64,000 nucleotides of DNA from IMG/VR virus record IMGVR_UViG_3300032334_002567, positions 310,001 through 374,000 of that record; one strand, given 5' to 3'. The DNA is from a virus. The notes below the pieces were generated by a model. The model searched no databases. It was given only the letters and a program-made list of their open reading frames with translations, and was not told the origin of the DNA. Positions 6,729-32,003 of the stretch are shown here, piece by piece; the first letter of the stretch is position 1; each line of letters starts with the position of its first letter. The position numbers were made by a program, and so were the translations under genes.

Positions 6729-6731
6729 AAC

Positions 6732-7019: not shown

Positions 7020-7028
7020 AACCCACCT

Positions 7029-7066
7029 TAGGGTACAAATAAAGTAATTAAAATAATTGTACCCTA
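7029..7066. repeat. Facing pair of elements (inverted 7029-7038, forward 7057-7066)
   Basis: TAGGGTACAA and TTGTACCCTA form a perfect 10-bp inverted repeat separated by 18 A+T-rich bases. In DNA this could be a two-site operator or divergent promoter pair; in read-through RNA it would form a hairpin. Confidence 0.7.
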
Positions 7067-7102
7067 GAAAAGTGTTCGATAACCCCCAACGGAGAATCCC
7101 TC

Positions 7103-7333: not shown

Positions 7334-7378
7334 ATTGTACCCTAGTTAATCGTTCGACACCCCCAACAAGAGGATGCA

Positions 7379-7582: not shown

Positions 7583-7630
7583 ATCATTTGTACCCTATTA
7601 AAGCGTTCAACACCCCAACGGAGAATGATC

Positions 7631-7957
7631 ATGGAATACACCGAAGCCCTCAAAGTTCTTGGCAAGCGTGATTCGAAGAAAGTCGGAAACAACACCTACA
7701 TGATCCGGCTGGGTTCGGACATCGGTATTCGACTTCACAACACCGTTGTGGTGACCATCCATCCCGACAATACCTACACACTCAATAGCGGTGGATGGCA
7801 GACAGTGACAACAAAGGATCGGATCAACCAGTATTCACCGGTTCGTGTGTATCAATCAAAAAGCGTTTGGTATGTCGGTCAAGGCGAGCTGTTTTACGAC
7901 AACATGAAAGTCGGTGTCGTTTGCGGTGAGCCGCTAGCTTTAGGAATTGTACCCTAG
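7631..7957 (+). CDS. Small beta-rich protein whose stop lies inside an element (108 aa)
   Basis: I chose the ATG at 7631 over 7625 for ribosome-binding-site spacing. The sequence (KVGNNTYMIRLGSDIGIRLHN... TYTLNSGGWQTVTTKDRIN) matches a recurrent phage pattern of small beta proteins with the NTY-x-x-R and TVTTKxRIN motifs. The last codons GTA CCC TAG are the element at 7947 itself, so the element supplies the stop codon. Confidence 0.7.
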   Translation: MEYTEALKVLGKRDSKKVGNNTYMIRLGSDIGIRLHNTVVVTIHPDNTYTLNSGGWQTVTTKDRINQYSPVRVYQSKSVWYVGQGELFYDNMKVGVVCGEPLALGIVP

Positions 7958-7996
7958 TAGGTTGTGTAACCACCCCCAACGGAGTTGTGAAAAAAC

Positions 7997-8278
7997 ATGA
8001 TGAACTACAGCGGTTGTAACAGCTGGATCTACATCTACGCCATCGGTGGCAATTGGAACCCCGGCCCCAGCGGTGACGAGTTCGTGGGCTGTGCCTACGA
8101 CGCCTCCACTGCCCTCAGCCTGCTCGACTTGGTCGAGTTGAAGGGTGGCTATGCCGTCAGCCTGCACGGTGACAACCTGCATACGCTCAATGCCGTCAGC
8201 GGCGAGTGTGGTGTGCGGGAAGCCCGTATCATGTTCAAGCTCTGGAAAGAGAAAGAGGCGGTCGTTGTCGCTGGGTAA
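7997..8278 (+). CDS. Small protein of unknown function (93 aa)
   Basis: CAACGGAGTTGTGAAAAAAC precedes two adjacent ATGs, with longer than usual spacing. It is rich in Gly, Trp and Tyr (WIYIYAIGGNWNPGPSG) and soluble. No family is recognised. Confidence 0.65.
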   Translation: MMNYSGCNSWIYIYAIGGNWNPGPSGDEFVGCAYDASTALSLLDLVELKGGYAVSLHGDNLHTLNAVSGECGVREARIMFKLWKEKEAVVVAG

Positions 8279-8331
8279 CAATAAATAAATTGTACCCTAA
8301 AAGAGTGTTCGATCCCAACGGAGAAGCGATC

Positions 8332-8475
8332 ATGGAAATTAAATTCAACTTCAAAACACGTCAGTACGACGTTTGCATCACATTCTTCGACGGCAGAACC
8401 CCCATAAATGTTTGCTCTTTCTACAAAGAGTCGGATGCTCGCGCCTACGTCATGGTTCACAATGTCAAGTGTTAG
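8332..8475 (+). CDS. Small protein of unknown function (47 aa)
   Basis: CCCAACGGAGAAGCGATC leader, identical in its last part to that of the gene at 8737. Beta-alpha pattern (MEIKFNFKTRQYDVCITFFD...). Flanked on both sides by element copies (8290, 8490), a complete one-gene unit of under 200 bases. Confidence 0.65.
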   Translation: MEIKFNFKTRQYDVCITFFDGRTPINVCSFYKESDARAYVMVHNVKC

Positions 8476-8534
8476 ATTCAATAAATAAATTGTACCCTGA
8501 CAGAGTGTTCGATCCACCCCAACGGAGTTTTGAA

Positions 8535-8687
8535 ATGACCGAAAACGAAATCAATGTTCTGGAAGAGGCCGCATCGCACATTCGAAACGATGCTTACAAC
8601 TGCGATAGCAGTCTGGATCGCAAGTATTTCGAAAAGCTTGCCGATAAGATCGAAGACATTATCGCCAAGCATAATCAAAGCAAATAA
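8535..8687 (+). CDS. Small helical protein (50 aa)
   Basis: CCCCAACGGAGTTTTGAA precedes the ATG. Two predicted helices (NEINVLEEAASHIRNDA and SSLDRKYFEKLADKIEDIIAKH), probably a helical hairpin. One-gene unit between element copies 8490 and 8689. Confidence 0.65.
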   Translation: MTENEINVLEEAASHIRNDAYNCDSSLDRKYFEKLADKIEDIIAKHNQSK

Positions 8688-8736
8688 ATTGTACCCTAGA
8701 TGATTGTTCGATTCACACCCCAACGGAGAAGCGATC

Positions 8737-9117
8737 ATGGCAAGCTGGTACACCGTCAGCGAGAGCAAGATTCAGTGGGCTCCCATCGGCACCCGTGTTC
8801 TGAAGACTGGCGAGACTAAGCCGAAGTTTTCCCGGATCGGCGTCCGTATCAATATGGTGGACGGTAGCTGGTGGTTCCACAGCTTCAAGCACGATAGCTG
8901 GACGCAACACTATCCCCGGAAGCAGGCCACCGACAAGCTGGGACGGCCCATTTTCGAGGATGGTCAGCCGCTCCTGCGACCGGAACGCAAGGAAACCTAC
9001 CGCAACTGGATGGCGGTTGTGAGAGAGTTCGGCACTCGACTGCCCGCTCTGGTTGTCGCTCTGGAAAACGGTCACGCCGAAGCTCTGCTAGCCGAAGCAG
9101 AGAAAACGGCAGCGTAA
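8737..9117 (+). CDS. Protein of unknown function (126 aa)
   Basis: Standard element at 8689 and CCCCAACGGAG leader. Basic, Trp-rich middle (DGSWWFHSFKHDSWTQHYPRK), then a helical Ala/Glu-rich end. No membrane segment. A stable nested hairpin follows the stop. Confidence 0.65.
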   Translation: MASWYTVSESKIQWAPIGTRVLKTGETKPKFSRIGVRINMVDGSWWFHSFKHDSWTQHYPRKQATDKLGRPIFEDGQPLLRPERKETYRNWMAVVREFGTRLPALVVALENGHAEALLAEAEKTAA

Positions 9118-9124
9118 AACGTGT

Positions 9125-9181
9125 GCTAGGGGCGGCAAGGCTCTACGGCCAAAAGCCGCGAAACTGCTAGCCGCCCCTAGC
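9125..9181 (+). terminator. Nested G+C-rich hairpin
   Basis: GCTAGGGGCGGC (9125-9136) pairs with 9170-9181, and inside it CGGC (9146-9149) pairs with GCCG (9155-9158) around CAAAA. No T run. The downstream GGGGTAC at 9187 faces the forward element at 9204 as a partial inverted copy. Confidence 0.6.
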
Positions 9182-9253
9182 CCGTTGGGGTACTTATAAA
9201 TAATTGTACCCTAAAAGTGTGTTGCGAACGCCCCTCTTTTTCAAGGATGAAAA

Positions 9254-9424
9254 ATGTACGCTCTGACGATGATCATAGGTTTTCTTGGCTACGGGTTCGG
9301 GTACGAGGGTTGTGAAAAAGGAAAGATATATTTCGGCGTGTATACCCCCAAAGCCGAATATGGTTGGGTCATGACAGAAAAAGACGTTTATCTGGATACC
9401 GTGTACCAGAAAACTTCTAAATAA
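9254..9424 (+). CDS. Small protein of unknown function (56 aa)
   Basis: CAAGGATGAAAA precedes the ATG; the leader here departs from the standard (CCCCTCTTTTTC replaces CCCCAACGG). The first 16 residues are hydrophobic and Gly-rich, possibly a signal anchor, followed by a Tyr-rich polar part. The stop lies one base before the next element. Confidence 0.6.
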   Translation: MYALTMIIGFLGYGFGYEGCEKGKIYFGVYTPKAEYGWVMTEKDVYLDTVYQKTSK

Positions 9425-9471
9425 ATTGTACCCTAGTTGATTGTTCGATCCAACCCCAACGGAGAATGACA

Positions 9472-9690
9472 ATGCCAAATATCAACTGGTTCGACGGTCA
9501 GAATGCGGTTGGCAAGTACGTTATGGAACTCATGTACGACGACGGTAGCGTCAGCTACATGAAAAATGAGAACTACGAGCAGATTTGCCACTACTACCGG
9601 CTTGCTTTGGAAATGTCGGAAGTGGTGGGTGCGACCATCTACAACCCAAAGTGGCAAGTAGTTTGCTCGACAGCACGGGCCGCAGCGTGA
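9472..9690 (+). CDS. Small protein of unknown function (72 aa)
   Basis: The ATG at 9472 was chosen over 9466 for spacing. Pattern: two beta strands with DDGSVSYMKNEN, then a helix, then WQVVCSTARAAA. The ending ARAAA before a CGGTTGCC hairpin recurs in the gene at 11645 (KAAA) and at 8737 (KTAA). Confidence 0.65.
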   Translation: MPNINWFDGQNAVGKYVMELMYDDGSVSYMKNENYEQICHYYRLALEMSEVVGATIYNPKWQVVCSTARAAA

Positions 9691-9698
9691 ACACGGTT

Positions 9699-9734
9699 GC
9701 CTGGGCGGGTTGAGACAAAACTCCCCGCCCTGGC
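9699..9734 (+). terminator. G+C-rich hairpin, second copy of the 6738 type
   Basis: GCCTGGGCGGG (9699-9709) pairs with CCCGCCCTGGC (9724-9734) with one T-T mismatch. It is followed by TTAGGGTAT, a partial inverted element facing the forward one at 9752. Confidence 0.55.
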
Positions 9735-9796
9735 CTGTTAGGGTATTTATATTGTACCCTATAGAAGTGTCAGCCACCCCAAACACAGGAGCCAAT

Positions 9797-9958
9797 ATGA
9801 GCAATAACGAAAAACCGTACTGCTTCGAAGAAGCCCGTTTCAAGCGTGAAATGGAATACGTGGCTCGTAAGCTCAAAGAGGCGTTGGAACTCAAGGAATA
9901 CGCCAAACAACTGGCAAAAGAAAAAGAACAAAAAGAGAAAGAGGAAAGCCGGGACTAA
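9797..9958 (+). CDS. Lys/Glu-rich coiled-coil protein (53 aa)
   Basis: ACAGGAGCCAAT precedes the ATG. From residue 12 onward it is an uninterrupted charged helix (EARFKREMEYVARKLKEALE then repeated KEKEQKEKE). The terminator hairpin overlaps its last codons. Confidence 0.65.
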   Translation: MSNNEKPYCFEEARFKREMEYVARKLKEALELKEYAKQLAKEKEQKEKEESRD

Positions 9959-9978
9959 CACCCCCGGTTCTCTTTTTT
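9947..9978 (+). terminator. Rho-independent terminator
   Basis: CCGGG (9949-9953) with CCCGG (9963-9967), extended by G-T and A-T pairs, nine-base loop, then TCTCTTTTTT. It overlaps the stop codon of the 9797 gene. An inverted element follows at 9988. Confidence 0.65.
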
Positions 9979-9987
9979 AGTCGGCCA

Positions 9988-10033
9988 TAGGGTACAAATA
10001 AAATAAAAAGGGATATACAATAATTGTACCCTA
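9988..10033. repeat. Facing pair of elements ahead of the structured RNA
   Basis: Inverted TAGGGTACAA at 9988-9997 and forward TTGTACCCTA at 10024-10033 with a 26-base A+T-rich centre. The forward copy heads the structured RNA unit at 10041. Confidence 0.65.
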
Positions 10034-10040
10034 TAACAGT

Positions 10041-10155
10041 GTGAATGATTGCGAGGCCGCACCATCGGCACTACTGTCCGGTTGCAAACGGCAGTAACTC
10101 GCGGGAGCGGTATGCCGAAAGGCAGCGAGTGGTGCACCCCATCGCAATCGTTCAC
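10041..10155 (+). ncRNA. Candidate novel structured RNA, about 115 nt
   Basis: No gene fits between the elements at 10024 and 10166. The two ends, 10041-10054 and 10142-10155, pair over 14 bp with one G-T. Inside, GCACCA (10059-10064) pairs with TGGTGC (10130-10135), enclosing two arms. One is TACTG/CAGTA plus CCG/CGG (10072-10096, one bulged T, eight-base loop). The other is CTCGC/GCGAG (10098-10102 with 10125-10129), topped by TGCC-GAAA-GGCA (10113-10124), a GNRA tetraloop. The fold is manual; the family is not one I recognise. Confidence 0.55.
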
Positions 10156-10209
10156 AACAAAACAATTGTACCCTAGAAAAGTGTTCGATTCACCCCAACG
10201 GAGACGATC

Positions 10210-10545
10210 ATGACTTTCGTCAACCTGACCCCGCACACGATCACTGTGGTTCTCGACAATACCAGCGTGCAATTCCCGGCTTCTGGCAACGTGGCCCGTG
10301 TTTCCACCAGTCGAGTCTCTGGCCCCACGCTAACCGTCTACGGCGATTCTGTCGGTATCCAGACTTCCCGTGTCGAGTTCGGGGCAGTCGAGGGGCTTCC
10401 CGATCCCGTGGACGGCACGGTTTACATTGTGAGCGGAATGGTCGCAGCCCGTGTCAACCGGCCCGACGTTTTCGCTCCCGGTGAACTGGTGCGTGATGCA
10501 AACGGCCAGCCCACCGGCTGCAAGGGTCTGACTTGCAGCGGTTGA
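10210..10545 (+). CDS. Conserved phage protein of the NLTPHTI type (111 aa)
   Basis: CCCCAACGGAGACGATC leader. It begins MTFVNLTPHTITVV, a start I know from a widespread family of small phage and plasmid proteins of unknown function, followed by the usual SG-x-x-ARV segment and a YIVSGMVAARV strand. Beta-rich, no membrane segment. The family assignment is from memory of the N-terminal motif. Confidence 0.75.
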   Translation: MTFVNLTPHTITVVLDNTSVQFPASGNVARVSTSRVSGPTLTVYGDSVGIQTSRVEFGAVEGLPDPVDGTVYIVSGMVAARVNRPDVFAPGELVRDANGQPTGCKGLTCSG

Positions 10546-10602
10546 TTATTATAATTGTACCCTATAGAAGTGTTCGATCCCAACCCCAACGGAGACTCAC
10601 GA

Positions 10603-11043
10603 ATGAACGACATTCTTCTCGCCGCCCTGACCAGCTGCTTCAGCAAGATGGCAAAGGCCGCTGGCCCGATTGCCCCCGGCCTGCACCAGGTCGATGAAAC
10701 GATCACGATGCGGGTCAAGGGCGAGGTGCTGAAGTCGGACGACGAAACCTACGTCCCGACGATTGCGATTCCCGTCAAGGCCGTGATGGCTACGTTGCTC
10801 CCCCGGTTGGGTGCGACACGGGAGGCTGCGATGGAAACGCTTATCGCCGCCATGACTGAAGCGGTCAATCTGGACAAGCTGGGCGATGAAACGCTCAAAG
10901 CCCGGATGAAAGACGTTGACGCGGCTTTCGAGCATGTGCAGAACGTGCTCGACGCCCTCCCGCCAAAGACACGGACGGGAAAGACGAACGTGGACGTGAC
11001 CCTTGTGGTCGCTCCCACGCCCGCCGTCGCACTTGTCCCGTGA
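10603..11043 (+). CDS. Protein of unknown function (146 aa)
   Basis: ATG after CAACGGAGACTCACGA. Mostly helical with a beta segment near residues 35-60 (ETITMRVKGEVLKSDDETY). The C terminus is Ala/Pro/Val-rich. It resembles small single-strand or RNA-binding phage proteins only in outline. A G+C-rich hairpin follows. Confidence 0.65.
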   Translation: MNDILLAALTSCFSKMAKAAGPIAPGLHQVDETITMRVKGEVLKSDDETYVPTIAIPVKAVMATLLPRLGATREAAMETLIAAMTEAVNLDKLGDETLKARMKDVDAAFEHVQNVLDALPPKTRTGKTNVDVTLVVAPTPAVALVP

Positions 11044-11047
11044 CGAT

Positions 11048-11096
11048 ACGGCATCGGGGGCGGGAGGAACTAACAACTCCCGCCCCCACTAGCCGT
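11048..11096 (+). terminator. G+C-rich two-part hairpin
   Basis: GGGGGCGGGAG (11056-11066) pairs perfectly with 11077-11087, and ACGGC (11048-11052) with GCCGT (11092-11096). No T run. It ends nine bases before the element at 11105. Confidence 0.6.
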
Positions 11097-11152
11097 TTGT
11101 GCAATTGTACCCTATTGGTTTGTGTGATTCGTCCCTTTACTTTGGAGCAGTT

Positions 11153-11335
11153 ATGGAAGCGAAAATCGAGAACGGCTTTCTGGTTCTGCGAGTCCCGATG
11201 AATGCAACGCCGATTCGTTCGTCTACCGGCAAGACTTTGGTGGTTGCCTCGACCTATGGCAACAAGGCAACCGAAGTGACGGTGGACGGCAAGACGGTCA
11301 CCGTGGGCGTCAACGCCTATATCAAGGCCGCTTGA
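11153..11335 (+). CDS. Small beta-rich protein (60 aa)
   Basis: TTTGGAGCAGTT precedes the ATG. Five short beta strands; contains STGKTLVVAST, which looks like a phosphate-binding loop but is too short and lacks the rest of a P-loop fold. This pattern matches small phage proteins of the type IxxxTGKTLVVAST..GN. A strong terminator follows. Confidence 0.65.
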   Translation: MEAKIENGFLVLRVPMNATPIRSSTGKTLVVASTYGNKATEVTVDGKTVTVGVNAYIKAA

Positions 11336-11355
11336 CCCCAACGGTTCGGATCGAA

Positions 11356-11393
11356 AGCCGGAGGGGACAGCCACCCCCTCCGGTTCTTTTTTT
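11356..11393 (+). terminator. Rho-independent terminator
   Basis: CCGGAGGGG (11358-11366) pairs with CCCCTCCGG (11375-11383), loop of eight, then TTCTTTTTTT. The same stem recurs at 12470. An inverted element follows at 11403. Confidence 0.85.
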
Positions 11394-11402
11394 AGCCCGC
11401 CA

Positions 11403-11439
11403 TAGGGTACAAATAAATATATAAAATAATTGTACCCTA
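11403..11439. repeat. Facing pair of elements
   Basis: Inverted TAGGGTACAA at 11403-11412 and forward TTGTACCCTA at 11430-11439 with a 17-base A+T centre, directly after the terminator at 11356-11393. Confidence 0.7.
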
Positions 11440-11482
11440 GATAAGTGTTCGATCTAACCTTCCCTCTCACTTGGAGTCAACG

Positions 11483-11551
11483 ATGATCGCTCTCGTTCTC
11501 GCGTTTGGCCTTGGTTTCGCCGCCATTTCTGCCGTTTACTGGGTGCTGTAA
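11483..11551 (+). CDS. 22-residue membrane microprotein
   Basis: TTGGAGTCAACG precedes the ATG, after a standard element at 11430. The whole product (MIALVLAFGLGFAAISAVYW plus VL) is one membrane helix. A dedicated promoter-like element for so short a gene suggests it is real rather than chance. Confidence 0.55.
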   Translation: MIALVLAFGLGFAAISAVYWVL

Positions 11552-11577
11552 AGCTCCCAGTCTAACACCTGAGTGAT

Positions 11578-11602
11578 TAGGGTATAAAGTAATTGTACCC
11601 TA
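11578..11602. repeat. Closely spaced facing pair of elements
   Basis: Inverted TAGGGTATAA (one change) at 11578-11587 and forward element at 11593-11602, only five bases apart, so close to a single palindromic operator. Confidence 0.6.
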
Positions 11603-11644
11603 GATAAGTGTTCGATCCGATCCCACCCCAACCGGAGACGCACG

Positions 11645-11938
11645 ATGAAGAACGCTTTCGACCGCACGAACAGCATGAAGAACAAGCTCAAGGCCGATTG
11701 GAACCGGATGGTGGGGGAACTGGTGTCCATCCCCGCCGGTTGCCAGATTCACAGCCTGACGCTCACGCAGACCAACTTCGGTTGGGTCTACGCCCGGAAG
11801 CACGGCCAGCCCGTGCCGGTCGCCCAGTTGCGGAACGCCGCCGTGACGAAGGGTTACTGTATCCTGCACGACGGCCCCAACTTCCGGGTGGCCCTCCCGC
11901 CGAAGCGGAACGGGGAGCCGGTCAAGGCCGCAGCGTGA
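11645..11938 (+). CDS. Protein of unknown function (97 aa)
   Basis: CCCCAACCGGAGACGCACG precedes the ATG. Basic, with an N-terminal helix (DRTNSMKNKLKADWNRMVGE) and a beta-rich rest. An overlapping frame at 11608-11967 is also open but has an Arg/Pro-rich, low-complexity product and no ribosome-binding site. Confidence 0.7.
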   Translation: MKNAFDRTNSMKNKLKADWNRMVGELVSIPAGCQIHSLTLTQTNFGWVYARKHGQPVPVAQLRNAAVTKGYCILHDGPNFRVALPPKRNGEPVKAAA

Positions 11939-11946
11939 ACACGGTT

Positions 11947-11981
11947 GCCGGGGCGGGTCGAGACTAACTCCCCGCCCCGGC
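11947..11981 (+). terminator. G+C-rich hairpin, third copy of the 6738 type
   Basis: GCCGGGGCGGG (11947-11957) pairs perfectly with 11971-11981. GGGGTAC at 11988 faces the forward element at 12006. Confidence 0.6.
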
Positions 11982-12054
11982 CCCGTTGGGGTACTTGTAT
12001 TTATATTGTACCCTATAGAAGTGTTCGATCCCCACCCCCAACCGGAGCCGCCCC

Positions 12055-12444
12055 ATGTTGAATGAAGCGTTCTTTCAGGTGTGCAACGATGCCGTCCCCG
12101 CAAAGTCCAGCTACGTCTCGCTCTACGTCAACGTGCCGTACTACGGTGGGCCGGAGGAAGGTGGATGGTGGGGCAGTGACACCGCACTAGTCGCTCACTA
12201 CAAGTGTGACAGCCAGCCCCATGCCGAAGCTGTGAAGGCCCGTGTCGAGGAGCTGGCCCAGCAGTTGAGCGACGATGCCCGCCGGTCGTTTGGTCAAGCC
12301 TGCAAGGCCCAGTGTGAATGGCTGGACGCACGTGGGTTGGACGCCGACTACCTGCCCGAAGTGGACGGGGAGGAAACCTACTGGGTCGCCGTCGAGGATC
12401 GCCCCGGTGAACACGCCAGCCAAGGGTGCAGGCACTACGAATAA
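12055..12444 (+). CDS. Protein of unknown function (129 aa)
   Basis: CAACCGGAGCCGCCCC precedes the ATG. N-terminal Tyr/Gly-rich part (SYVSLYVNVPYYGGPEEGG), then a helical middle and an acidic C terminus. The last gene of the small-gene array. A shadow frame on the other strand (12128-12466) is Arg/Pro-rich and rejected. Confidence 0.65.
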   Translation: MLNEAFFQVCNDAVPAKSSYVSLYVNVPYYGGPEEGGWWGSDTALVAHYKCDSQPHAEAVKARVEELAQQLSDDARRSFGQACKAQCEWLDARGLDADYLPEVDGEETYWVAVEDRPGEHASQGCRHYE

Positions 12445-12469
12445 AATTGTACCCTATCAAGCACACCGA

Positions 12470-12502
12470 CCGGAGGGGACAGCCAACCCTCCGGCTTTCT
12501 TT
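12470..12502 (+). terminator. Rho-independent terminator
   Basis: CCGGAGGG (12470-12477) pairs with CCCTCCGG (12487-12494), loop of nine, then CTTTCTTTTC. It begins only 14 bases after the element at 12447, so that copy would give a transcript of about 40-50 bases, a terminated short RNA or simply an array end. Confidence 0.7.
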
Positions 12503-12513
12503 TCAGCCCGCCA

Positions 12514-12552
12514 TTGGGTACAAATAAAGTAATACATAATAATTGTACCCTA
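12514..12552. repeat. Facing pair of elements at the array end
   Basis: Inverted TTGGGTACAA (one change) at 12514-12523 and forward TTGTACCCTA at 12543-12552, 19 A+T-rich bases between. Confidence 0.6.
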
Positions 12553-12698
12553 GTAATATACAGGAGGGTATTACAAAGATAATAATACAGAAATAAAAAG
12601 CGAAAACCTTTTAAAAAAATTGTACCCTAGGTACCCTCCCCCCCGCAATTACTGTCTTATTTTTTAAGTCGTCCTGACTTTTTTTCCCGTATTAGCAC

Positions 12699-12767
12699 CG
12701 TTGCAAAATCCCGGTTACAAACGTTGCAAAATCCCGGTTACAAACGTTGCAAAATACCAGTTACAAA
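12699..12767 (+). repeat. Three tandem 23-bp repeats
   Basis: Units at 12699-12721, 12722-12744 and 12745-12767, each starting CGTTGCAAAAT. The first two are identical; the third differs at two positions. There is no spacer between units, so this is not CRISPR. It could be an iteron-like protein-binding array. Confidence 0.85.
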
Positions 12768-12977
12768 ATTTTGGCCCTAGTAATTCTTTATTTTCTCCAT
12801 ATGGGCTTAAGATTTTAATATTGATGACATCTTTAAAAAATCCAGCCAAAAAATTCCATAAAATTCTATTACAAATTTTGGCCCCAACAATTCTTCGTTC
12901 TATGCCGTATAAATAAATTAGGCAAAATGGAGTGCCTCTAAAAAAATGCGGCACGAAATTTTTAACGAAGGAGTGTT

Positions 12978-13073
12978 ATGGATTATTATTCTATAAGTGG
13001 ATTGGCAGTAATTACATCAATTATTTGGTTGTTTTGCTATTGTGTAAAAATAACAATGGACAATAACGAATAG
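12978..13073 (+). CDS. 31-residue membrane microprotein
   Basis: GAAGGAGTGTT precedes the ATG with ideal spacing. After DYYSIS a hydrophobic segment (GLAVITSIIWLFCYCVKI) spans the membrane, ending in DNNE. The first gene of the A+T-rich part. Confidence 0.55.
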   Translation: MDYYSISGLAVITSIIWLFCYCVKITMDNNE

Positions 13074-13611: not shown

Positions 13612-14154
13612 ATGTTATTTTTTAGAAGTTTTATTTGTTTTAGGTTAAATGGGAAAATAAATTCAAAAACAGTTAGTGAATTTGAAGAAATACTTTCAAA
13701 TTGTTTAAAAACAAAACAAAATATACTTCCTATAGTAATAAACTCAACAGGAGGTTGTGCTTATTCTTTAGTATCTTTATATGAAAAAATTAAAAAATCA
13801 AAAATAAAAGTAGCAACAATAGTTGAGCACAAAGCATTATCAGCAGCGGCATTTCTTCTGTCTTGTGGCAATCAAGGATACAGATATATGGCCAAAGAAG
13901 CAGTTGTTATGATACATGATGCACATTCAGCGGATTTAAAACCAGACTTAAAAGAAATAGAAAGAATTAATAGCGTATTATACAACATATTAGAAAACAA
14001 CTCTAATAAAAAAAACAACTTTTTTAAGAACATAATGCAAGACAATAAATGTTCAGATCTATATCTAAATGCTGAACAATGTCTCAAATATAAAATTATT
14101 GATTTTATTGGAATTCCTATAATTAAATCAATAATAGAAAAAGAATATTCATAG
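13612..14154 (+). CDS. ClpP/crotonase-fold serine protease-like protein (180 aa)
   Basis: The sequence follows the ClpP pattern: INSTGG near residue 43 (oxyanion strand), KALSAAAFLLSCG with candidate nucleophile Ser77, and VVMIHDAH with candidate His102. The tail (LNAEQCLKYKIIDFIG) corresponds to the usual EA-x-x-x-GLID segment. At 180 residues it is near normal ClpP length. Phage members of this fold often serve as prohead proteases, but no capsid gene is next to it here, so role is inferred. The start is the first ATG, with no clear ribosome-binding site. It converges with the next gene by six bases. Confidence 0.75.
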   Translation: MLFFRSFICFRLNGKINSKTVSEFEEILSNCLKTKQNILPIVINSTGGCAYSLVSLYEKIKKSKIKVATIVEHKALSAAAFLLSCGNQGYRYMAKEAVVMIHDAHSADLKPDLKEIERINSVLYNILENNSNKKNNFFKNIMQDNKCSDLYLNAEQCLKYKIIDFIGIPIIKSIIEKEYS

Positions 14155-19610: not shown

Positions 19611-19970
19611 ATGAGCAATAATTCTTTTAAATCGTGGTTGAAACTATCGGAAGATGGTGGAGGTGCCGGTGGTGGTGGAGGTGCCGGTGGTGGTGGAGGT
19701 GCCGGTGGTGGTGCCGGTGGTGGTGGAACTAGTGGTGGTGGAACTAGTGGTGGTGGAACTAGTGGTGGTGGAACTAGTGGTGGTGGAACTAGTGGTAGTG
19801 GAACTAGTGGTGGTGGAACTAGTGGTGGTGGAACTAGTGGTGGGCAAAATCCTCCCATGGGCAGTGGAACTGGCAAAGATAATATCGCCAAAGTTCCTAC
19901 ACGTTGGGGATGTTGTGGAATTTGGCCATATTGGAAAAAGAAAAGAAGAAAAAAGAAAAAAAGTGGATAA
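19611..19970 (+). CDS. Gly-rich repeat protein with basic tail (119 aa)
   Basis: Begins MSNNSFKSWLKLSEDGG, matching the head-tag pattern (SFKSW...LSE), followed by Gly/Ala repeats and eight GGGTS-type repeats encoded by a 15-bp DNA repeat. The C terminus has WGCCGIWPYW and an extreme Lys/Arg end (KKKRRKKKKSG). The stop overlaps the GTG start of MscL. There is no known relative that I can name. The DNA repeat makes length variation likely. Confidence 0.6.
   Translation: MSNNSFKSWLKLSEDGGGAGGGGGAGGGGGAGGGAGGGGTSGGGTSGGGTSGGGTSGGGTSGSGTSGGGTSGGGTSGGQNPPMGSGTGKDNIAKVPTRWGCCGIWPYWKKKRRKKKKSG
19719..19838 (+). repeat. Eight 15-bp tandem repeats inside the Gly-rich gene
   Basis: GGTGGTGGAACTAGT repeated eight times in frame (one unit has GGTAGTGG), preceded by related GGTGGAGGTGCC units from about 19659. 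The repeat leaves all three forward frames open, which creates a false Val-rich extension of the MscL frame. Confidence 0.95.
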
Positions 19971-20439
19971 TAAAGAGCTACTGCCTTCCATTCCTGATGA
20001 TCAAAAAAAGAAGGTATTCTCGTTAATAGAGGAATTTAAGAATTTTGCTTTTAAGGGCAACGTTGTTGATCTAGCTGTGGGTATGGTTATTGGGAGTTCT
20101 TTTAGTAATATAGTAAACAGTTTAGTCAACAACCTAATTACTCCGATAATAGGTATAGTTTTACCGGGTGATGTTGGACTTAAAGATTGGCAAATAGTTG
20201 TTGGCGAAAAACGAATACCTTTTGGTGCATTCTTTAATGATGTATTTGGATTCTTACTCACTGCGACTATTTTGTTCTTATTCTTGAAGAAGTTTTTAGT
20301 TTGGTTGTTGAAGTCTAGAAGAGAGGTGGACTTGAACAAACCTCCTCTAACTAAAGACCAAGAACTATTGCGTCAAAACAACGAAGTACTTAACCAAATA
20401 AAAGACATTTTATTGAGAAGTCAAAGTACCGGACTATAG
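19963..20439 (+). CDS. mscL: Large-conductance mechanosensitive channel MscL
   Basis: The start is GTG at 19963, overlapping the stop of the previous gene; upstream in-frame codons are only the Val-Glu reading of its DNA repeat. The 158-residue product has the diagnostic N-terminal helix FKNFAFKGNVVDLAVGMVIG, the first pore helix with SSFSNIVNSLVNNLITPIIG, a periplasmic loop, the second helix (FGFLLTATILFLFLKKFLVWLL) and a C-terminal charged helix. Bacterial MscL is a homopentameric emergency valve in the inner membrane. A phage copy could protect the infected cell from osmotic shock or help lysis or ejection. Confidence 0.9.
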   Translation: MDNKELLPSIPDDQKKKVFSLIEEFKNFAFKGNVVDLAVGMVIGSSFSNIVNSLVNNLITPIIGIVLPGDVGLKDWQIVVGEKRIPFGAFFNDVFGFLLTATILFLFLKKFLVWLLKSRREVDLNKPPLTKDQELLRQNNEVLNQIKDILLRSQSTGL

Positions 20440-22185: not shown

Positions 22186-22980
22186 TTAGATTACCATAGT
22201 AAGGCATTTACAAGCTCCACCGGCCTTTATAAATTCACTCATATTTGTTTCGTGAACTTTGTAGCCTCTGCTCTCTAGCAATTCCTTGGTACTACTGCAT
22301 CCTGCCGGTATAACAATATTGTTTTCAATAAGAACTGCATTACAGGCAAACTTTAATGCATCTTCTTGTGCGACTTCTAGCAATTCAAACTTACTTCTTA
22401 AGAAAGAAATTTTGTCATCATCAAAAGCCTTTGGATATATCAAAATTTGCTTGTTATTTAAAGGACAGAAGCATGTATCTAAATGATAAAAATAAGGATC
22501 TACAAGATTGAGCCTTATACACTTAACGTGGTAGTCTAACAAAGATTGCCAAATTTCATGGTCATATGCTTCTTCGTCACTTCTGAAGCCGTAACCCATA
22601 AAGATGTACCGATCTTTTATCAGACAATCTCCAGCTCCTTCAAACCTTAAATTTTCAGGAAGCTCAAAAGTTTTACAATTATTGCTCAAGAACCAATTTT
22701 TGTAAAGTTGCTTTTCTGGGATTCTTTCTTTATATTTAAAATTTGAAAGTAAAATGTTGTTTTCAATTAATATTCCTGCATTGGCTGTAAAGACTATGTC
22801 TGGAAGCTTGTCGGCAGGGGGCATTCTAAGGACATTAACGTTCAAAGATTCTAGGATTGAAATTAAGTTTTGCCATTGTTGATTGGCTAGTTCTTGGTTT
22901 ACCTTTTTTTCTAGGCTCATCCAAGGGTTAATTTCATAGTCAATTTGATAAAAAGATGGATCACAAGTAAGTATATTCAT
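22186..22980 (-). CDS. DDAH/amidinotransferase superfamily enzyme (264 aa)
   Basis: The order of motifs fits the guanidino-group-modifying superfamily (DDAH, arginine deiminase): DIVFTANAG at residues 61-69, FEGAGD at 113-118, YHLDTC with His166, and the C-terminal GGACKCLT with candidate nucleophile Cys259. Length matches DDAH. The likely reaction is hydrolysis or transfer of the amidino group of arginine or a methylated arginine; substrate unknown. Unusual in a phage; a role in host arginine metabolism, or in countering arginine-derived signals, is inference. Confidence 0.8.
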   Translation of the reverse strand: MNILTCDPSFYQIDYEINPWMSLEKKVNQELANQQWQNLISILESLNVNVLRMPPADKLPDIVFTANAGILIENNILLSNFKYKERIPEKQLYKNWFLSNNCKTFELPENLRFEGAGDCLIKDRYIFMGYGFRSDEEAYDHEIWQSLLDYHVKCIRLNLVDPYFYHLDTCFCPLNNKQILIYPKAFDDDKISFLRSKFELLEVAQEDALKFACNAVLIENNIVIPAGCSSTKELLESRGYKVHETNMSEFIKAGGACKCLTMVI

Positions 22981-22994: not shown

Positions 22995-23264
22995 TTATGA
23001 ATTAGGTAATTTTATTACTTTCACAACAAGATCTCCACTACCTTTTATAATACGATGCCACTCATTCGCTTTTATCTTGATTTCTTGGTTTATAGGGATG
23101 GGCAGTTCATTTTCTCTCTGAAAAAGCCAATCATTTGTACCTATGGGAAATACAATTCTATCTTCTAGGTCTTTATGCCACTTTAGTTCACTAGAATCTA
23201 AATCCTTGGAAAAAGTTCTAATAAAAATATTTTCTAATTTTTTTTCTGAAAATGGAAGTTCCAT
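22995..23264 (-). CDS. Cupin-like small phage protein (89 aa)
   Basis: Start at 23264 with AAGGATATGTATT upstream; longer in-frame starts lack a site and would overlap the divergent gene. The pattern KWHKDLEDRIV...WLFQRENELPIPI...EWHRIIKGSGDLVVKV is one I know from cyanophage and T4-like hypothetical proteins: a small cupin-like fold with a conserved W-H and FQ-x-ENELP motif. Function is unknown. Confidence 0.7.
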   Translation of the reverse strand: MELPFSEKKLENIFIRTFSKDLDSSELKWHKDLEDRIVFPIGTNDWLFQRENELPIPINQEIKIKANEWHRIIKGSGDLVVKVIKLPNS

Positions 23265-23277
23265 AATACATATCCTT

Positions 23278-23883
23278 ATGAGTTTTAAAGAGTATATATC
23301 CAGCAAAAAAGTACAACCTATGGAATTATTAGAATCCATAGAAATTAGTGATAATTTGAAGTATCACTTAGAGAATAATATTTCCTTATGTGAAAATGTA
23401 TTCAGAGTTTATAGTGAAGCATATTTTAGTTTGATAAGAGAGGTCAGAGAACTTTATAATAAGGATATGATAGCTATTAACGATGAAGATGCAGAGTTGC
23501 TAGAAACTGACTTGGGTGAATTTATAGAATTAAATGGAGAGGTCATTTATTTTGATGCACCAATGTTAGAAGAGAGTGAAATAAATGAAGCTGAGGTGGC
23601 GGGTAAAAAAGTAAAACTTAATAAACCAACTAGAACTCCTGGTGGGCCAAAGAAATTCAAAGTACACGTAAAAACTTCTAGTGGTAGGATTAAAACTGTG
23701 CGGTTTGGAGACTCAAAAGCTTCAGGACTAACAATTAAAAACTCAAATCCCGCAAGAGCAAGAAGCTTTAGAGCAAGACATAAATGTAGTGAAAAGAAAG
23801 ATAGAACGACACCGGGCTATTGGTCTTGCAATGTGGGCAGGTATGCCAAGGCTCTTGGATTATCTTCGTCTAGACCTTGGTAA
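23278..23883 (+). CDS. Tagged phage protein with RARHKC...PGYWSC C-terminal motif (201 aa)
   Basis: Starts MSFKEYISSKK, matching the head-tag pattern, with LLE at about residues 17-19 as possible cleavage site. The C-terminal 80 residues follow a pattern I know from many T4-like and cyanophage proteins: KFKVHVKTSSGRIKTVRFGD, then KNSNPARARSFRARHKC and PGYWSC. Function of that domain is unknown; it is usually linked to virion proteins. It is divergent from the 22995 gene. Confidence 0.7.
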   Translation: MSFKEYISSKKVQPMELLESIEISDNLKYHLENNISLCENVFRVYSEAYFSLIREVRELYNKDMIAINDEDAELLETDLGEFIELNGEVIYFDAPMLEESEINEAEVAGKKVKLNKPTRTPGGPKKFKVHVKTSSGRIKTVRFGDSKASGLTIKNSNPARARSFRARHKCSEKKDRTTPGYWSCNVGRYAKALGLSSSRPW

Positions 23884-23885
23884 TT

Positions 23886-24830
23886 TTATTGCCAAGTAGG
23901 CATTAATATCTGCTTCTTTATCTTTTCTTTGTCAGTTACTTTTTGTTTAGTTTCTTTGTCGTTTATCGGTATTTCTTGAACAAATAAACTTCCAAAAAGT
24001 AAGTCTCCTAACATGCTATTATCAGGTAATGCCTTATAATAAGGTTGCTGTCCTCCGCCTTTGTGGTTGAGAGCAAATGCTTTTAAAAACTGTGCTATTG
24101 ATACGTTTTCTTTATCTTTTAAAGCGTCGTATGTAGTCTTGAATCTTAAAGCAAAAACGCCTCTAGTAGATAGCATTTCAGCACTAGAAGAACTAATAAT
24201 TAATGCTTCTTCATACGCCCCACTATCCTCTCCGTAGTCTATAGATTCATCTTTTCTAATATCAAATATGCCTATGAAAGGAAAGATAATTCTATTGTTT
24301 TTACTTGGTAGCTCTGGGAGGAATGCGATCCCTTTCTCAATCTCTAGATTTCTTAACAATTCCCCATTCTCTTTAAATCCTTCTTGTATTCCACCTTGGG
24401 CATGACAAGTATCAATTAGCACTATCAACCTTTTAACTTTTTTGGATTTAGCTATCGATTCTAGTGCTTTGCTGAATTTAAAACTACCGCCTCTTGCTTG
24501 CATACCAAAATTATTTCTACTACCGCCTCCATGACCATTTAAATATAATAAAAGTGTAGATCTATCTGTTATTTTTTTTGATGTTTCTGTAATTGTTGAG
24601 TATATTTGCTGGGAAGAAACATTATGATGCCGTTCCGATTTAAAACCAAGTTTCTTATCTTTAAATACAGATTCCATTAAGTCTAAATTCTTTGTTCTTC
24701 CCCCTTCATCTGACATGGTGAAGAGCAGAGCTATGTTATTTTCAAGAGGATCGTACGCCATACCGGTTTCAACCTCTTGTCCATAACAAGTAGATGTAAA
24801 AAGTAACAACAGTATTAAAATATTTTTCAT
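23886..24830 (-). CDS. Secreted caspase-like (C14) protease (314 aa)
   Basis: A clear signal peptide (KNILILLLLFTSTCYGQ) is followed by a caspase-fold domain: LLYLNGHGGG with catalytic His100 and LIVLIDTCHAQGG with catalytic Cys142, preceded by the usual strand and helix order. Later SSSSAEMLSTRGVF fits the region after the large subunit. The start overlaps the previous stop as ATGA, so it is coupled to the 24827 gene. Such proteases are known in bacteria but hardly in phages. The target could be an envelope protein. The dyad is intact, so it is probably active. Confidence 0.85.
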   Translation of the reverse strand: MKNILILLLLFTSTCYGQEVETGMAYDPLENNIALLFTMSDEGGRTKNLDLMESVFKDKKLGFKSERHHNVSSQQIYSTITETSKKITDRSTLLLYLNGHGGGSRNNFGMQARGGSFKFSKALESIAKSKKVKRLIVLIDTCHAQGGIQEGFKENGELLRNLEIEKGIAFLPELPSKNNRIIFPFIGIFDIRKDESIDYGEDSGAYEEALIISSSSAEMLSTRGVFALRFKTTYDALKDKENVSIAQFLKAFALNHKGGGQQPYYKALPDNSMLGDLLFGSLFVQEIPINDKETKQKVTDKEKIKKQILMPTWQ

Positions 24831-25873
24831 ATTATTGGTGTTTGGAAGGATGGCCCCGAATATAAAGAGCCATTGTAGCCGGGAATTTGTTTTATTTTTT
24901 CTTCATATTTGTCTAGATGATTCATCGACTGTTTTTTATCTATCAATTCTTTTATATAGTTAAGATTATGTGTAACTATTTGAGGAAAATTAGTAGGTGA
25001 TTGCAGGTTCTCAAGCGGTATGTTTCTGCTTCTAATTATCCTAAAACTTCTTGGTCTGAATTTATTAACTGCGTTTAACTCTTCATGCAGAGTGTATAAA
25101 TCCACTAAAATATGCATATCTTCTGATATTGGATTTCTTTTAAATGTTATTTTTTCAACAACTGCGAGGTCTCTTCCGTTTATCACAAATTTTCCAATTA
25201 TATTTTGTTCGGGGAAAATTTTTCTAATTTTTAAGAGTTGTTTTCTTAGCTCTTGTTTCTCAAATCTAGCTTCTTCTATATCTTGCTTGTGATATTCTTT
25301 TCTTTGTTCGATGTATTCTTTTAAGTGGTCATTTTTTGCTAGTTTAAGTAATCTTTCAATAAAAGGTTTCCTTAAATACACTCTGGTGTTTGATATATGA
25401 CTTTTTTCTGGCTCATTCTGTACGATTTCCATATCGGTTAGTTTTGATATGAAAGTGTGGTATACTAGTAGCATATCTTTCTCATAAGGGGAAAAAGATA
25501 TGCCATCTACACGTTTGGTGTCAATCAATTTCTTAATACCAAACATAATTTTTTCATATATCGCATTAGATTGAGAGTTACTTCTTGTTGCACTGTAGGT
25601 GTTATCTTTTAAGAAGTCGATTTGATATATATTTTCTAAAATACTATTAGGATCTTCTATCCCACTATCCATCATTGCATCCTCAAGACCTCCAGCTATT
25701 GTGCTACCTTTTTGCATCTTTACAACATATTTTGATTTTGAAACATCATCTATGAATTCATATTCATATCCTTCTTTGTTTCCAAAATATGTAGGAATTA
25801 ACTCGATGTGACTAGTATCTGCGTTTACTAAATCTCTTATTTCAAAAATATAGAAAAATTCTTTAAAATTCAT
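24827..25873 (-). CDS. Tagged protein of unknown function (348 aa)
   Basis: I use ATG at 25873; the frame also has a TTG two codons earlier. The N terminus MNFKEFFYIFEIRD matches the head-tag pattern with IFE as possible cleavage site. The middle is mostly helical with many charged residues (RKEYHKQDIEEARFEKQELRK). It is translationally coupled to the caspase-like gene, which suggests they work together. A cyanophage-like structural ejection protein is possible. No domain recognised. Confidence 0.65.
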   Translation of the reverse strand: MNFKEFFYIFEIRDLVNADTSHIELIPTYFGNKEGYEYEFIDDVSKSKYVVKMQKGSTIAGGLEDAMMDSGIEDPNSILENIYQIDFLKDNTYSATRSNSQSNAIYEKIMFGIKKLIDTKRVDGISFSPYEKDMLLVYHTFISKLTDMEIVQNEPEKSHISNTRVYLRKPFIERLLKLAKNDHLKEYIEQRKEYHKQDIEEARFEKQELRKQLLKIRKIFPEQNIIGKFVINGRDLAVVEKITFKRNPISEDMHILVDLYTLHEELNAVNKFRPRSFRIIRSRNIPLENLQSPTNFPQIVTHNLNYIKELIDKKQSMNHLDKYEEKIKQIPGYNGSLYSGPSFQTPII

Positions 25874-25925
25874 ATACAAGCTTAAGCAAAGGTAATATGC
25901 TTATATAGAAATGTTTAAACTTATT

Positions 25926-26760: not shown

Positions 26761-27492
26761 ATGCGCTTGGCAATAATCACGCTTATGTTAACCTTTAATG
26801 TAGCTTGTGGTGGAACTATCGATCCTTCTACTCCTGATTCAAAATATGTGGAGTATGCCAAAGACTTCGAATGTATACTAAAAATATGTGGAAAAGATGA
26901 AAAAGATAGAAGTTACTGTGCTTCAGCAGTTGCTGTTGCCCCGCATTGGATCATGACCGCTGCTCATGTTGTGAAAGATGTGAAGTCAAGCTTTGTTGTA
27001 GTCAACCACAAAGTTTTTGAAGTAAAGAAAATAGTTTGCCATGATCAGTATGAAGAAAAAAACTATGGAACTTGTGATTTAGCTTTAGGCTATATTGAAG
27101 AAGATCTGGGGCTTAAGTTCTATCCAGAGATATATAAAAATCAGGATGAAGTAGGAAAGATTTGTTCTATTTCTGGTTACGGCATTACAGGTACCTTTAA
27201 TACGGGTGCAAAAAATAGTGACAACCAAAGACGAGCTGGATCTAATAAAGTCGAATCAATTGACAGAAAACTTCTAGTTTGCACTCCATCAAAAGAAAAT
27301 AGAACTTCTTTAGAATTTCTTATCGCACATGGCGATAGTGGAGGAGGCTTATTTATAGATGGAAAACTAGCGGGCATTAATTCTTGTGTAATGGCAACAG
27401 ACAAAAAGCCAGATTCAACTTATGGCGATGAGAGTGGTCACACAAGACTAAGTCTTTATAAGGATTGGATTAAAGAAGTCATGCAAAAATAA
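26761..27492 (+). CDS. Secreted trypsin-like serine protease, probable lipoprotein (243 aa)
   Basis: A signal sequence (MRLAIITLMLTFNVAC) ends in a lipobox-like cysteine at residue 16. The chymotrypsin-fold triad is complete: His69 in MTAAHVV, Asp106 in CDLAL, Ser193 in GDSGGG. Several extra cysteines could form disulfides in the periplasm. The product would sit in the envelope of the infected cell. Phage-encoded S1 proteases are rare; it lies about 2 kb from the caspase-like protease, so the two may act on the same envelope targets or on competing phages. Confidence 0.85.
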   Translation: MRLAIITLMLTFNVACGGTIDPSTPDSKYVEYAKDFECILKICGKDEKDRSYCASAVAVAPHWIMTAAHVVKDVKSSFVVVNHKVFEVKKIVCHDQYEEKNYGTCDLALGYIEEDLGLKFYPEIYKNQDEVGKICSISGYGITGTFNTGAKNSDNQRRAGSNKVESIDRKLLVCTPSKENRTSLEFLIAHGDSGGGLFIDGKLAGINSCVMATDKKPDSTYGDESGHTRLSLYKDWIKEVMQK

Positions 27493-27937: not shown

Positions 27938-28284
27938 TTTATTTCCCAAGAAGCGTTTGGTCTCCTCAAGTTTTCTTTCTTTAAAGATTTACTGCAAGCT
28001 TCGGTAACGCTTGCTACTGATTTTTTTGCTTGCGACAAAGTATCTGCACTCCCCATATAGAATAGTTCTTTTGCAGAATGCAAATTTTCACAAGAATAAG
28101 GCAAGTCTATTTCTTCTTTTACCAGACCTTCCTTATTGTAGGTTTGATCTATGATTTTTGGGACATGATAACACGTAAAACACATTCTTGGGTAAAGATT
28201 GCCATCAACATAGGGCTTTGTTTTGTGGACCGTGGTGTGTATGTCCATTTTTTGATTACACAAAGAGCAGACGTCTTTTTTCAT
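27934..28284 (-). CDS. Zinc-finger-like protein (116 aa)
   Basis: Two cysteine pairs, CSLCNQK near residue 6 and CFTCYH near residue 35, form a likely zinc site. The C-terminal half is helical (LSQAKKSVASVTEACSKSL). The start overlaps the patatin gene's stop as ATGA and its end overlaps the phosphoribosyltransferase start, so it is translationally coupled both ways. Confidence 0.7.
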   Translation of the reverse strand: MKKDVCSLCNQKMDIHTTVHKTKPYVDGNLYPRMCFTCYHVPKIIDQTYNKEGLVKEEIDLPYSCENLHSAKELFYMGSADTLSQAKKSVASVTEACSKSLKKENLRRPNASWEIK

Positions 28285-29105
28285 GGACCTTTAAGGAAAA
28301 GCCTTATTCCCTTTTTATCATGAATATAGTAATTGTTCCTACCATATTCTACCCCAACTTTGCAGCGATTGAAATACACACTGTCAAAAGCCAGATTATT
28401 TGGTTCAACAAGGTGTATGTTGACATTTTTAAATTTTGGATCATCTTCCTCCCTAATGCAGGAAAAAATATCTCTAATCATAATTTCATATAGACTGATA
28501 TCCAGTGCTCTAAATGCCATGTTTAGAGCTTTAAGAAAACCTTTTGGCTTTTCCCAAGGCTCTAAAAAAGCTGGTCTGCCCATTATCACATATATTTCGT
28601 CGCAACCAGCTTCTATACATTGTTCTAAAGGGGCCAATTGCCTACTCCCCGCATCTACCCAACCATTGCGATCTTGTACCAATCCAGTAATTGCCACGCT
28701 GCCTAGAATTGCTTCTTTAAATTCTTCTTTTGTACAATGTTTGTTTGAAACGTATTGAAGTTCACCTGTTTCTATGTTCATCCTACAAACGACGCTTTCA
28801 CATAAAGGTTCATTTTCTAATGATTTTTTTACAATTTTTTCCATTGGCTTCTGATTGAATATCCCAGTAGAAAAAAGAAAATTAATATTAGGTTGAAAAA
28901 CATCGAAAATATTTGAAATGTTTTTCCACATATTCGCCAAACCTTCTGGTCCTAAATACGCATAAGAAGCCGCACATATAGAACCAGAGGAAATCCCTAT
29001 AGTAAAATCTGCATTGATTCCCTTTTTAGATAGGTCTGCTGCAATGCCAGCTTGTACAGAACCTCTAGCTCCCTCCCCGGTAAAACAAAAACCTATTTTA
29101 GTCAT
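28281..29105 (-). CDS. Patatin-like phospholipase (274 aa)
   Basis: It has the three diagnostic parts: an oxyanion-hole motif GEGARG (residues 10-15), the nucleophile elbow GISSG with Ser39, and the dyad Asp in DAG (residues 151-153). Length is that of single-domain patatin-like acyl hydrolases, which cleave phospholipids. It lacks a signal peptide, so it would act from the cytoplasm on the inner membrane. A role in lysis or in membrane remodelling is inferred. Central gene of a four-gene minus-strand operon (29976 to 27494). Confidence 0.85.
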   Translation of the reverse strand: MTKIGFCFTGEGARGSVQAGIAADLSKKGINADFTIGISSGSICAASYAYLGPEGLANMWKNISNIFDVFQPNINFLFSTGIFNQKPMEKIVKKSLENEPLCESVVCRMNIETGELQYVSNKHCTKEEFKEAILGSVAITGLVQDRNGWVDAGSRQLAPLEQCIEAGCDEIYVIMGRPAFLEPWEKPKGFLKALNMAFRALDISLYEIMIRDIFSCIREEDDPKFKNVNIHLVEPNNLAFDSVYFNRCKVGVEYGRNNYYIHDKKGIRLFLKGP

Positions 29106-30476: not shown

Positions 30477-31949
30477 TTATTTCTTTAGTGAATCTATCCA
30501 TTTTTTTGTTGATAGATTTTGCTTAACATAGTCGAATTCTTTACCTTGCGGCGATCTGCCTAAAAGATCAGTATATGCTGGATTTATTGCTCTTTTTCCT
30601 TTTTCATCCGTTATATAAGGGGCTAAATCGCTTTCATCGTGGTCAATAAAACTATTAAATTCATCTTTATCTAGGTTGACCATCTTCATCCAATCCTTGA
30701 TTTTGGACTTTGTTAATCCACTATGAGCCTTTTTTATACTATAAAATTGATTTGAATCAAAATTGTTATTTTTACCCCAATTATAAAGTTTGACAAGATA
30801 TGCAATATCGTTAGCTTCTTGGCTAGTCCAACCATTCGATGTAAGAAGTTCTTTTACTTGATCTGGGGAATTATTCCTTAGAACCCAAGCGACACTCAAC
30901 CATCTGTCCCCTACAAAGTTTTCTGGCATTTCTTCTTCTGTTGAGAATTCCACACCAGGAAAAATTTGACTAAATATATCAAGTGAATGGGCCGTCTTCA
31001 TTAGTTTTCTAGGATCTACATCAGGATGCTCTAAAGTACTGATAAAATCTTTTTTCACTAATTCTTTTGGAAGACTGGCGATGCTCTTTGAATGGCTTTT
31101 TATTATCTTTGCATAATCCTTTGGCAGAGATTCTGGGTTGCCGTATCTTGCATTTGTTTTTAGAAGTCTTAGTGCAATTGCTGGGTCTTCTTTGAGTCTA
31201 TCTTCTAGTTTTTCTCCTACTACCTTTATTTGGCTGTTCTTTAGATGGGTAGCTCCACCATATGGATCTATTAGTTCACTATTATCGCCATCTGCGTTTG
31301 ATAATGGTATGTATAGAGAGTTTATAGTTAAGTCTCTATTTGACGAATCTTCTTCTATAGATGAAGCAGACTCAGCCTTATCAGGTTGTATTCTTCTGCT
31401 TTTTAGACTCTTTGACAAAGTTGCTATTTCAAACTCTTCACCATTTATTTCTACCGTTATCTCTAATTCTTTTCCCTGTTTATCCCACCTAGAAACATAG
31501 AAAGATTTCTTATTTGTAGATGTTGGTAGCTTTGCATATCTTTTTTCTTCAGGAAGATTTTTTGGTTTAACTTCTGAGAAACCTTCTTCGGATTGGTCTA
31601 ATATCATTCTTACTTCACTTATTGTAGCGTCTGTTACCAAGTCATAATTTCTTGGTGTCTTGCCTTTTAAGTGATCACGCACGGCACCACCGGTTAAATA
31701 CAAAGATTTTTTCTTTAACTGTGGCTCTATTTCGCCTTTTGATTTGTCGATAGTGGTATAGCCCAGTCCAACTTGGTTCGAGCCATTAAAAGCTTTTACA
31801 AGATATCTCAAATTAGCATGAGAGTTTTTATTGATGGCAAAAGGAGTAAACTCTTTGTCTCCTAGTTTCTTCTGAAGTTTAACCTTAGATGTAACTGATT
31901 CTGGCTCTTTGGCTTGCTCCCTGAACTGATAATACTTTGAGAATTTCAT
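30477..31949 (-). CDS. CCA-adding/poly(A) polymerase-type nucleotidyltransferase with head tag (490 aa)
   Basis: ATG at 31949 follows TTGGGGTAAAA. Class II head domain: LYLTGGAVRDHLKG (GGAVRD at residues 87-92), RNYDLVTDAT (101-109) and NRDLTINSLY; then a helical neck and body. The first Asp of the usual DxD is Asn101 here, so metal binding may be altered. The start MKFSKYYQFREQ matches the head-tag pattern of other proteins here. The tRNA-Leu at 565 lacks CCA, giving a possible substrate. Either a packaged tRNA-repair enzyme or an inactive relative. Confidence 0.75.
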   Translation of the reverse strand: MKFSKYYQFREQAKEPESVTSKVKLQKKLGDKEFTPFAINKNSHANLRYLVKAFNGSNQVGLGYTTIDKSKGEIEPQLKKKSLYLTGGAVRDHLKGKTPRNYDLVTDATISEVRMILDQSEEGFSEVKPKNLPEEKRYAKLPTSTNKKSFYVSRWDKQGKELEITVEINGEEFEIATLSKSLKSRRIQPDKAESASSIEEDSSNRDLTINSLYIPLSNADGDNSELIDPYGGATHLKNSQIKVVGEKLEDRLKEDPAIALRLLKTNARYGNPESLPKDYAKIIKSHSKSIASLPKELVKKDFISTLEHPDVDPRKLMKTAHSLDIFSQIFPGVEFSTEEEMPENFVGDRWLSVAWVLRNNSPDQVKELLTSNGWTSQEANDIAYLVKLYNWGKNNNFDSNQFYSIKKAHSGLTKSKIKDWMKMVNLDKDEFNSFIDHDESDLAPYITDEKGKRAINPAYTDLLGRSPQGKEFDYVKQNLSTKKWIDSLKK

Positions 31950-32003
31950 TTTTACCCCAATCATTATTTTAATAAAGTTATTTATGCCTTATTATAGTAT
32001 TTT

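Follow-up and report, generated by a model that had tools for sequence, protein, structure and literature searches.

A small protease with the caspase fold is encoded in a 381-kb phage record and in at least 20 further large sequences of bacterial viruses; judging from its sequence, it is probably exported, outward through the host inner membrane. The window analyzed here comprises 64,000 nucleotides and corresponds to positions 310001-374000 of a 381,443-base IMG/VR virus record. The gene is a single ORF on the minus strand of the window (23886-24830, 314 codons) and encodes a protein of 314 amino acids, which was recognized as caspase-like from its match to the Peptidase_C14 profile (PF00656, 36.2 bits against a curated cut-off of 21.4, E 6.7e-9), its predicted fold, and its relatives in IMG/VR. 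The same profile is matched by 19 of the 22 family members at E≤0.01. The His and Cys dyad of the caspase fold, which the initial annotation had read from the motifs NGHGGG and DTCHAQ, is intact. His100 (codon 24531-24533, minus strand) lies in a motif that reads N[GS]HGGG across the family, Cys142 (codon 24405-24407, minus strand) lies in DTCHA, and neither residue varies in the 22 sequences. The protein thus combines the features of the PF00656 superfamily, namely the profile, the predicted fold, and a His-then-Cys dyad at the ends of strands 3 and 4. We consider it very likely that the protein is a clan CD, C14-like, exported single-domain caspase-fold cysteine endopeptidase of large tailed phages.

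Comparison with the structures of C14 peptidases had been suggested as a check, and an AlphaFold2 model built on the 22-sequence family alignment (pLDDT 75, pTM 0.76) predicts the complete caspase fold. The model consists of a six-stranded sheet (residues 33-38, 64-68, 92-102, 132-141, 206-216, and 261-268) with helices on both sides, in which His100 is located at the end of strand 92-102 and Cys142 follows strand 132-141. Aligned over 182 residues, procaspase-3 matches the model with a VIA Z score of 17.6 and an rmsd of 2.7, and caspases or procaspases make up all of the best 50 PDB matches. The C-terminus and the linker after Cys142 (residues 144-169) are modeled with low confidence, the latter coinciding with the position of the inter-subunit linker of caspases. 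Besides the dyad residues, the blocks N...LFT, E.GR, HGGG, and DTCHA.G.I are invariant in the 22 sequences.

HMMER alignments to two reconstructed ancestral caspases pair Glu42 (codon 24705-24707, minus strand) with the Arg by which caspases bind a P1 Asp, and both Glu42 and Asp140, the Asp of the DxC motif, are invariant in the family. Specificity for a basic P1 residue is known for metacaspases and the paracaspase. Because the S1 pocket would hold the acidic Glu42 and Asp140 where caspases have Arg, these residues suggest a preference for Lys or Arg at P1. With regard to subfamily, the protein has the DxC of the metacaspases and orthocaspases (C14B) and, as predicted from alignment, may have an acidic S1 pocket. 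Membership in the animal caspases (C14A), which carry QACxG and the S1 Arg, was rejected. Peptidase C13 (legumain/GPI8) was rejected as well: the GPI-anchor transamidase is the best phmmer match in the PDB, across the His-Cys core of the window protein, and a weak C13 match is found in 12 of the 22 family members, but the window protein scores 13.2 bits against a cut-off of 22.8.

Using single-protein and alignment searches, relatives were found on 26 IMG/VR contigs, and the last scan added none. These contigs, which reach 459, 323, 251, and 226 kb, include a second copy of the window virus (L002), and together with the window they yield 22 distinct full-length sequences, the relatives being 45-59% identical to the window protein. 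The family is under strong purifying selection, with dN/dS of 0.02-0.2 for the pairs where it was computable. Outside of IMG/VR, no homologue was found by tblastn of 50,697 GenBank phages or among the PLSDB plasmids, and a comparison of the window protein with the PHROG families gave nothing convincing. A scan of bacterial genome contigs, which relies on short exact patterns and cannot prove absence, returned one distant Acidobacteria protein (L025, 24% identical) with a signal-like stretch and DTCHS. The top matches in BFVD are metacaspases of giant eukaryotic viruses, and the sole tailed-phage match at E<0.001 is an unannotated protein of Myoviridae sp. ctWaE18. No caspase family encoded by phages was described in the papers searched; a survey of jumbo phages makes no mention of caspases (PMC7824862), and phage-related metacaspase operons have been noted in Clostridium botulinum (PMC3501461). 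The fold and the peptidase family are already known, and so are bacterial C14 proteins in which a signal peptide is possible (PMC3501461) and giant-virus metacaspases. The novelty, judged from the collections and papers searched, lies in a conserved, probably exported caspase family in huge phages.

The window protein begins with the hydrophobic stretch MKNILILLLLFTSTCYGQ. Its hydrophobic core and the signal-like N-termini of the relatives point to a signal peptide at approximately residues 1-18 (24777-24830, minus strand) with likely cleavage near CYG-QE. By a crude rule that combines hydrophobicity with a (-3,-1) pattern typical of an SPase I-like site, 17 of 20 family members have such an N-terminus, against 11 of 312 ORFs from the rest of these loci, two of the 11 being trypsins. 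The signal peptide of the initial annotation is thereby supported. In most members an [AGS]-Q-[ED] cleavage-like pattern stands immediately ahead of the conserved domain, extended in many of them to A-x-A-Q-[ED]-KTG, and the L032 member resembles a lipoprotein. From these sequence features we infer export through the host Sec system.

A few members, such as that of L033, have no clear cleavage site, which would fit a cytosolic caspase that keeps its N-terminal helix as an anchor and is used in the manner of the caspases of abortive infection or programmed death. We regard this reading as very unlikely, as it is at odds with the cleavage-like pattern of most members and with the lipoprotein-like one. 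In addition, Pfam finds no sensor or adaptor domain in any family member, no PADLOC family matches the window protein at E≤1, and the EACC1-associated defence caspase model (NF047832, NCBIfam) gives it 23.7 bits, far under the cut-off of 140. Given the PADLOC and NCBIfam results and the export signal, a defence effector is also unlikely. The likeness to abortive-infection proteases drawn in the initial annotation is accordingly weak, since those enzymes are cytosolic and wired to sensors or adaptors, whereas the window protein is a single domain that bears a signal and has no PADLOC match.

That the protease is phage-encoded agrees with the T4-type baseplate genes of the record and with the conserved family that the relatives form on IMG/VR contigs. 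Of the 19 caspase-bearing records searched, 13 contain a T4 gp6-like baseplate wedge gene (in the window at 56307-57863, plus strand, phrog_219 6e-29), so these are contractile tailed phages. The distance between this gene and the caspase gene is 14-39 kb in 12 of the 13, several contigs being short, which limits the possible distance. The phrog_219 matches of four baseplate wedge genes (G007, G010, G011, and G014) contain one or two TGA codons, which may reflect read-through past the gene end or recoding.

Immediately upstream of the caspase gene is a gene (24827-25879, minus strand) whose product, read from the ATG at 25873, begins MNFKEFFYIFE, a T4-like head-targeting N-terminus. The stop codon of this gene and the start codon of the caspase overlap in ATGA, so the coupling to a head-tagged protein described previously is real in the window, but it is lineage-specific and not a conserved link. 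For the head-tagged gene, a relative was found only in the second copy of this virus. Other lineages have a different gene upstream, and a 4-nt overlap with some upstream gene occurs in 5 of 20 loci. A conserved head-tagged partner was therefore ruled out; as the coupled partner differs between relatives, all that the coupling shows is co-expression of the caspase with a neighbor. T4-like head-targeting N-termini are nonetheless frequent around the family (73 of 401 ORFs near its members versus 3% in shuffled controls), the caspase itself having none. One is found on the convergent neighbor, a DUF5754/phrog_7595-like protein (F7; 23143-23883, also listed as 23272-23883, plus strand) that is near the caspase in L018 and L033 too. 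Another is found on a tRNA nucleotidyltransferase (CCA-adding/PolyA_pol head; window 30477-31964, L009 9797-11110, L013 5509-6924, L033 22-1512), which is possibly packaged in the capsid, to judge from this N-terminus. The window also encodes a ClpP-like serine protease (13612-14154, PF00574 5.7e-19) that might act as a prohead-type protease for head-tagged proteins; a search of the record for an S77 prohead protease gave no match, and neither did the controls.

Several hydrolases and a channel accompany the caspase. These are a secreted trypsin-like protease (F15; 26761-27492, plus strand, PF00089 3.4e-17), a patatin-like phospholipase (28281-29105, minus strand, PF01734 1e-8), and MscL, whose domain occupies the C-terminal half of its ORF (19654-20439, plus strand, PF01741 5e-29). 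The trypsin is syntenic in L018 and L033 and its family is over the cut-off in 6 of 19 records, the patatin family occurs in 9 of 20 caspase loci, and MscL is present in 9 of 19 records and adjoins the caspase in L009/L011. The window, L018, and L033 have in common a block of patatin, phosphoribosyltransferase, secreted trypsin, head-tagged DUF5754-like protein, caspase, and arginine dihydrolase, the last being an arginine dihydrolase/dimethylargininase-like enzyme (window 22186-22980, L018 9865-10656, L033 8870-9658; NF052232 8e-76, under the model cut-off). In other lineages the caspase lies beside an FkbM methyltransferase (L019-L021) or, in seven loci, a conserved protein of 210 residues that carries an HExxH motif. 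Among the scanned neighbors, none that adjoins the caspase was recognized as a holin, endolysin, or spanin. A glycine/threonine-rich tandem repeat (window 19611-20439, L002 12392-13172) is flanked by a head-tag-like start (MSNNSFKSWLKLSED) in one frame and by MscL in a different frame, and its length differs between these two copies of the virus.

Promoter searches of the window found no T4 late promoter TATAAATA upstream of genes, and the Bacteroidota-type promoter TANNTTTGC, examined for a hint of the host, was not above chance, a longer form being weakly above it. In the first part of the window (1-13000), the motif AATTGTACCCTAn(5-7)TGTTCGATC..CCCCAACGGAG occurs at least 22 times at scattered positions, often just before small ORFs, in what looks like an array of early promoters with leader and SD sequences. 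Most of this region has a GC content of 42-57% as compared to about 32-41% elsewhere in the window. For the caspase itself, we infer late expression.

Our working model is that the host Sec system and signal peptidase I would carry the caspase to the periplasm or surface, where Cys142, activated by His100, would cut proteins after Lys or Arg. Acting late in infection, in many of these phages alongside the secreted trypsin, patatin, and MscL, it would weaken envelope proteins or strip them away, which would ease the release of very large virions. We prefer such late envelope proteolysis, tentatively and at somewhat less than even probability, over the other roles considered. In its favor are the linkage to structural and head-tagged genes and the trypsin, patatin, and MscL nearby or in the same record. 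Against it, many records lack MscL and trypsin, although these records are fragments, and neither a late-promoter motif nor adjoining lysis genes of the three kinds above were seen. Glycosyl- and methyltransferase neighbors, moreover, fit surface remodeling equally with lysis. The FkbM methyltransferase and glycosyltransferase-like neighbors of several lineages, which would suit a surface-remodeling module, together with the predicted export signal, could instead point to receptor shaving or superinfection exclusion, in which surface proteins are removed so that competitors cannot adsorb and progeny avoid sticking to debris. These surface-modifying neighbors are lineage-specific, however, and the structural-gene linkage suggests late rather than early expression, so that exclusion would come late; we judge this role rather improbable.

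The strong selection on the active site and the many accessory genes of huge phages would also suit counter-defence, whereby the caspase cuts periplasmic or membrane-exposed portions of host defence proteins. Most known defence machinery is cytosolic, though, the conserved neighbors are structural, head-tagged, or hydrolytic, and no known anti-defence gene adjoins the caspase in the window lineage, so we rate this as unlikely; an ArdC-like domain does lie nearby in L015-type lineages. This domain belongs to a protein with an ArdC N-terminal region, an M78-like metalloprotease region, and a head-targeting start (F4; L015 8085-9518 and relatives), which is possibly an injected anti-restriction factor. 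Late envelope proteolysis, receptor shaving, and counter-defence are not firmly separated by the data. Slightly less probable than counter-defence is that the caspase processes exported or virion-surface proteins of the phage itself, for instance by activating the co-encoded secreted trypsin. The two enzymes occur in one syntenic block in three diverged genomes, and secreted Arg-specific clan CD enzymes such as clostripain and gingipains do activate other proteins, but with so few records carrying a trypsin over the cut-off (6 of 19), the trypsin is unlikely to be the general substrate. A broader conjecture, to which we give a low probability, is that phage-specific extracytoplasmic caspases with secreted trypsin, patatin, and MscL constitute a proteolytic egress route of huge phages alongside or instead of the usual lysis by holin, endolysin, and spanin.

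Bacterial caspases are known mainly as candidate effectors of cell death and of defence against phages. A conserved phage-side caspase family that is probably exported and apparently absent from described phages and PHROGs reverses this picture and points to proteolysis in the periplasm or at the surface as a stage of huge-phage infection that has yet to be explored. The protein is also small, expressible, and cysteine-dependent, and its specificity prediction is clear and directly testable.

Among known systems, bacterial metacaspases and orthocaspases (C14, PF00656) have the same fold, His-Cys dyad, and DxC motif, and some bacterial C14 members have an N-terminal helix that is possibly a signal peptide (PMC3501461), as does the Acidobacteria protein L025. 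The phage family differs from them in its invariant N-terminal block LFT[ML]..E.GR, its lack of an accessory domain, and its 24% identity to the one match found. Animal caspases (C14A) have the whole p20/p10 fold in common with it (Z 16-17.6), but the phage family has DTCHA for QACxG, Glu42 for the S1 Arg, and predicted export. The GPI-anchor transamidase and C13 enzymes are similar in the His-Cys core, whereas the whole-fold matches listed are caspases. Clostripain (C11) and the gingipains (C25) are secreted clan CD Arg/Lys proteases. By analogy they would resemble the phage protein in secretion and in predicted basic P1 specificity, yet there is no family match and the phage protein has no visible pro- or C-terminal secretion domains. 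Giant eukaryotic virus metacaspases are likewise a virus-encoded caspase fold, but the host kingdom differs and, at 10-14% identity, they are not the same family. Finally, the defence caspases (EACC1-associated and Craspase/TPR-CHAT) are cytosolic and sensor-controlled, whereas the phage family, with the same caspase fold, is predicted to be exported, is free-standing, and is carried by phages.
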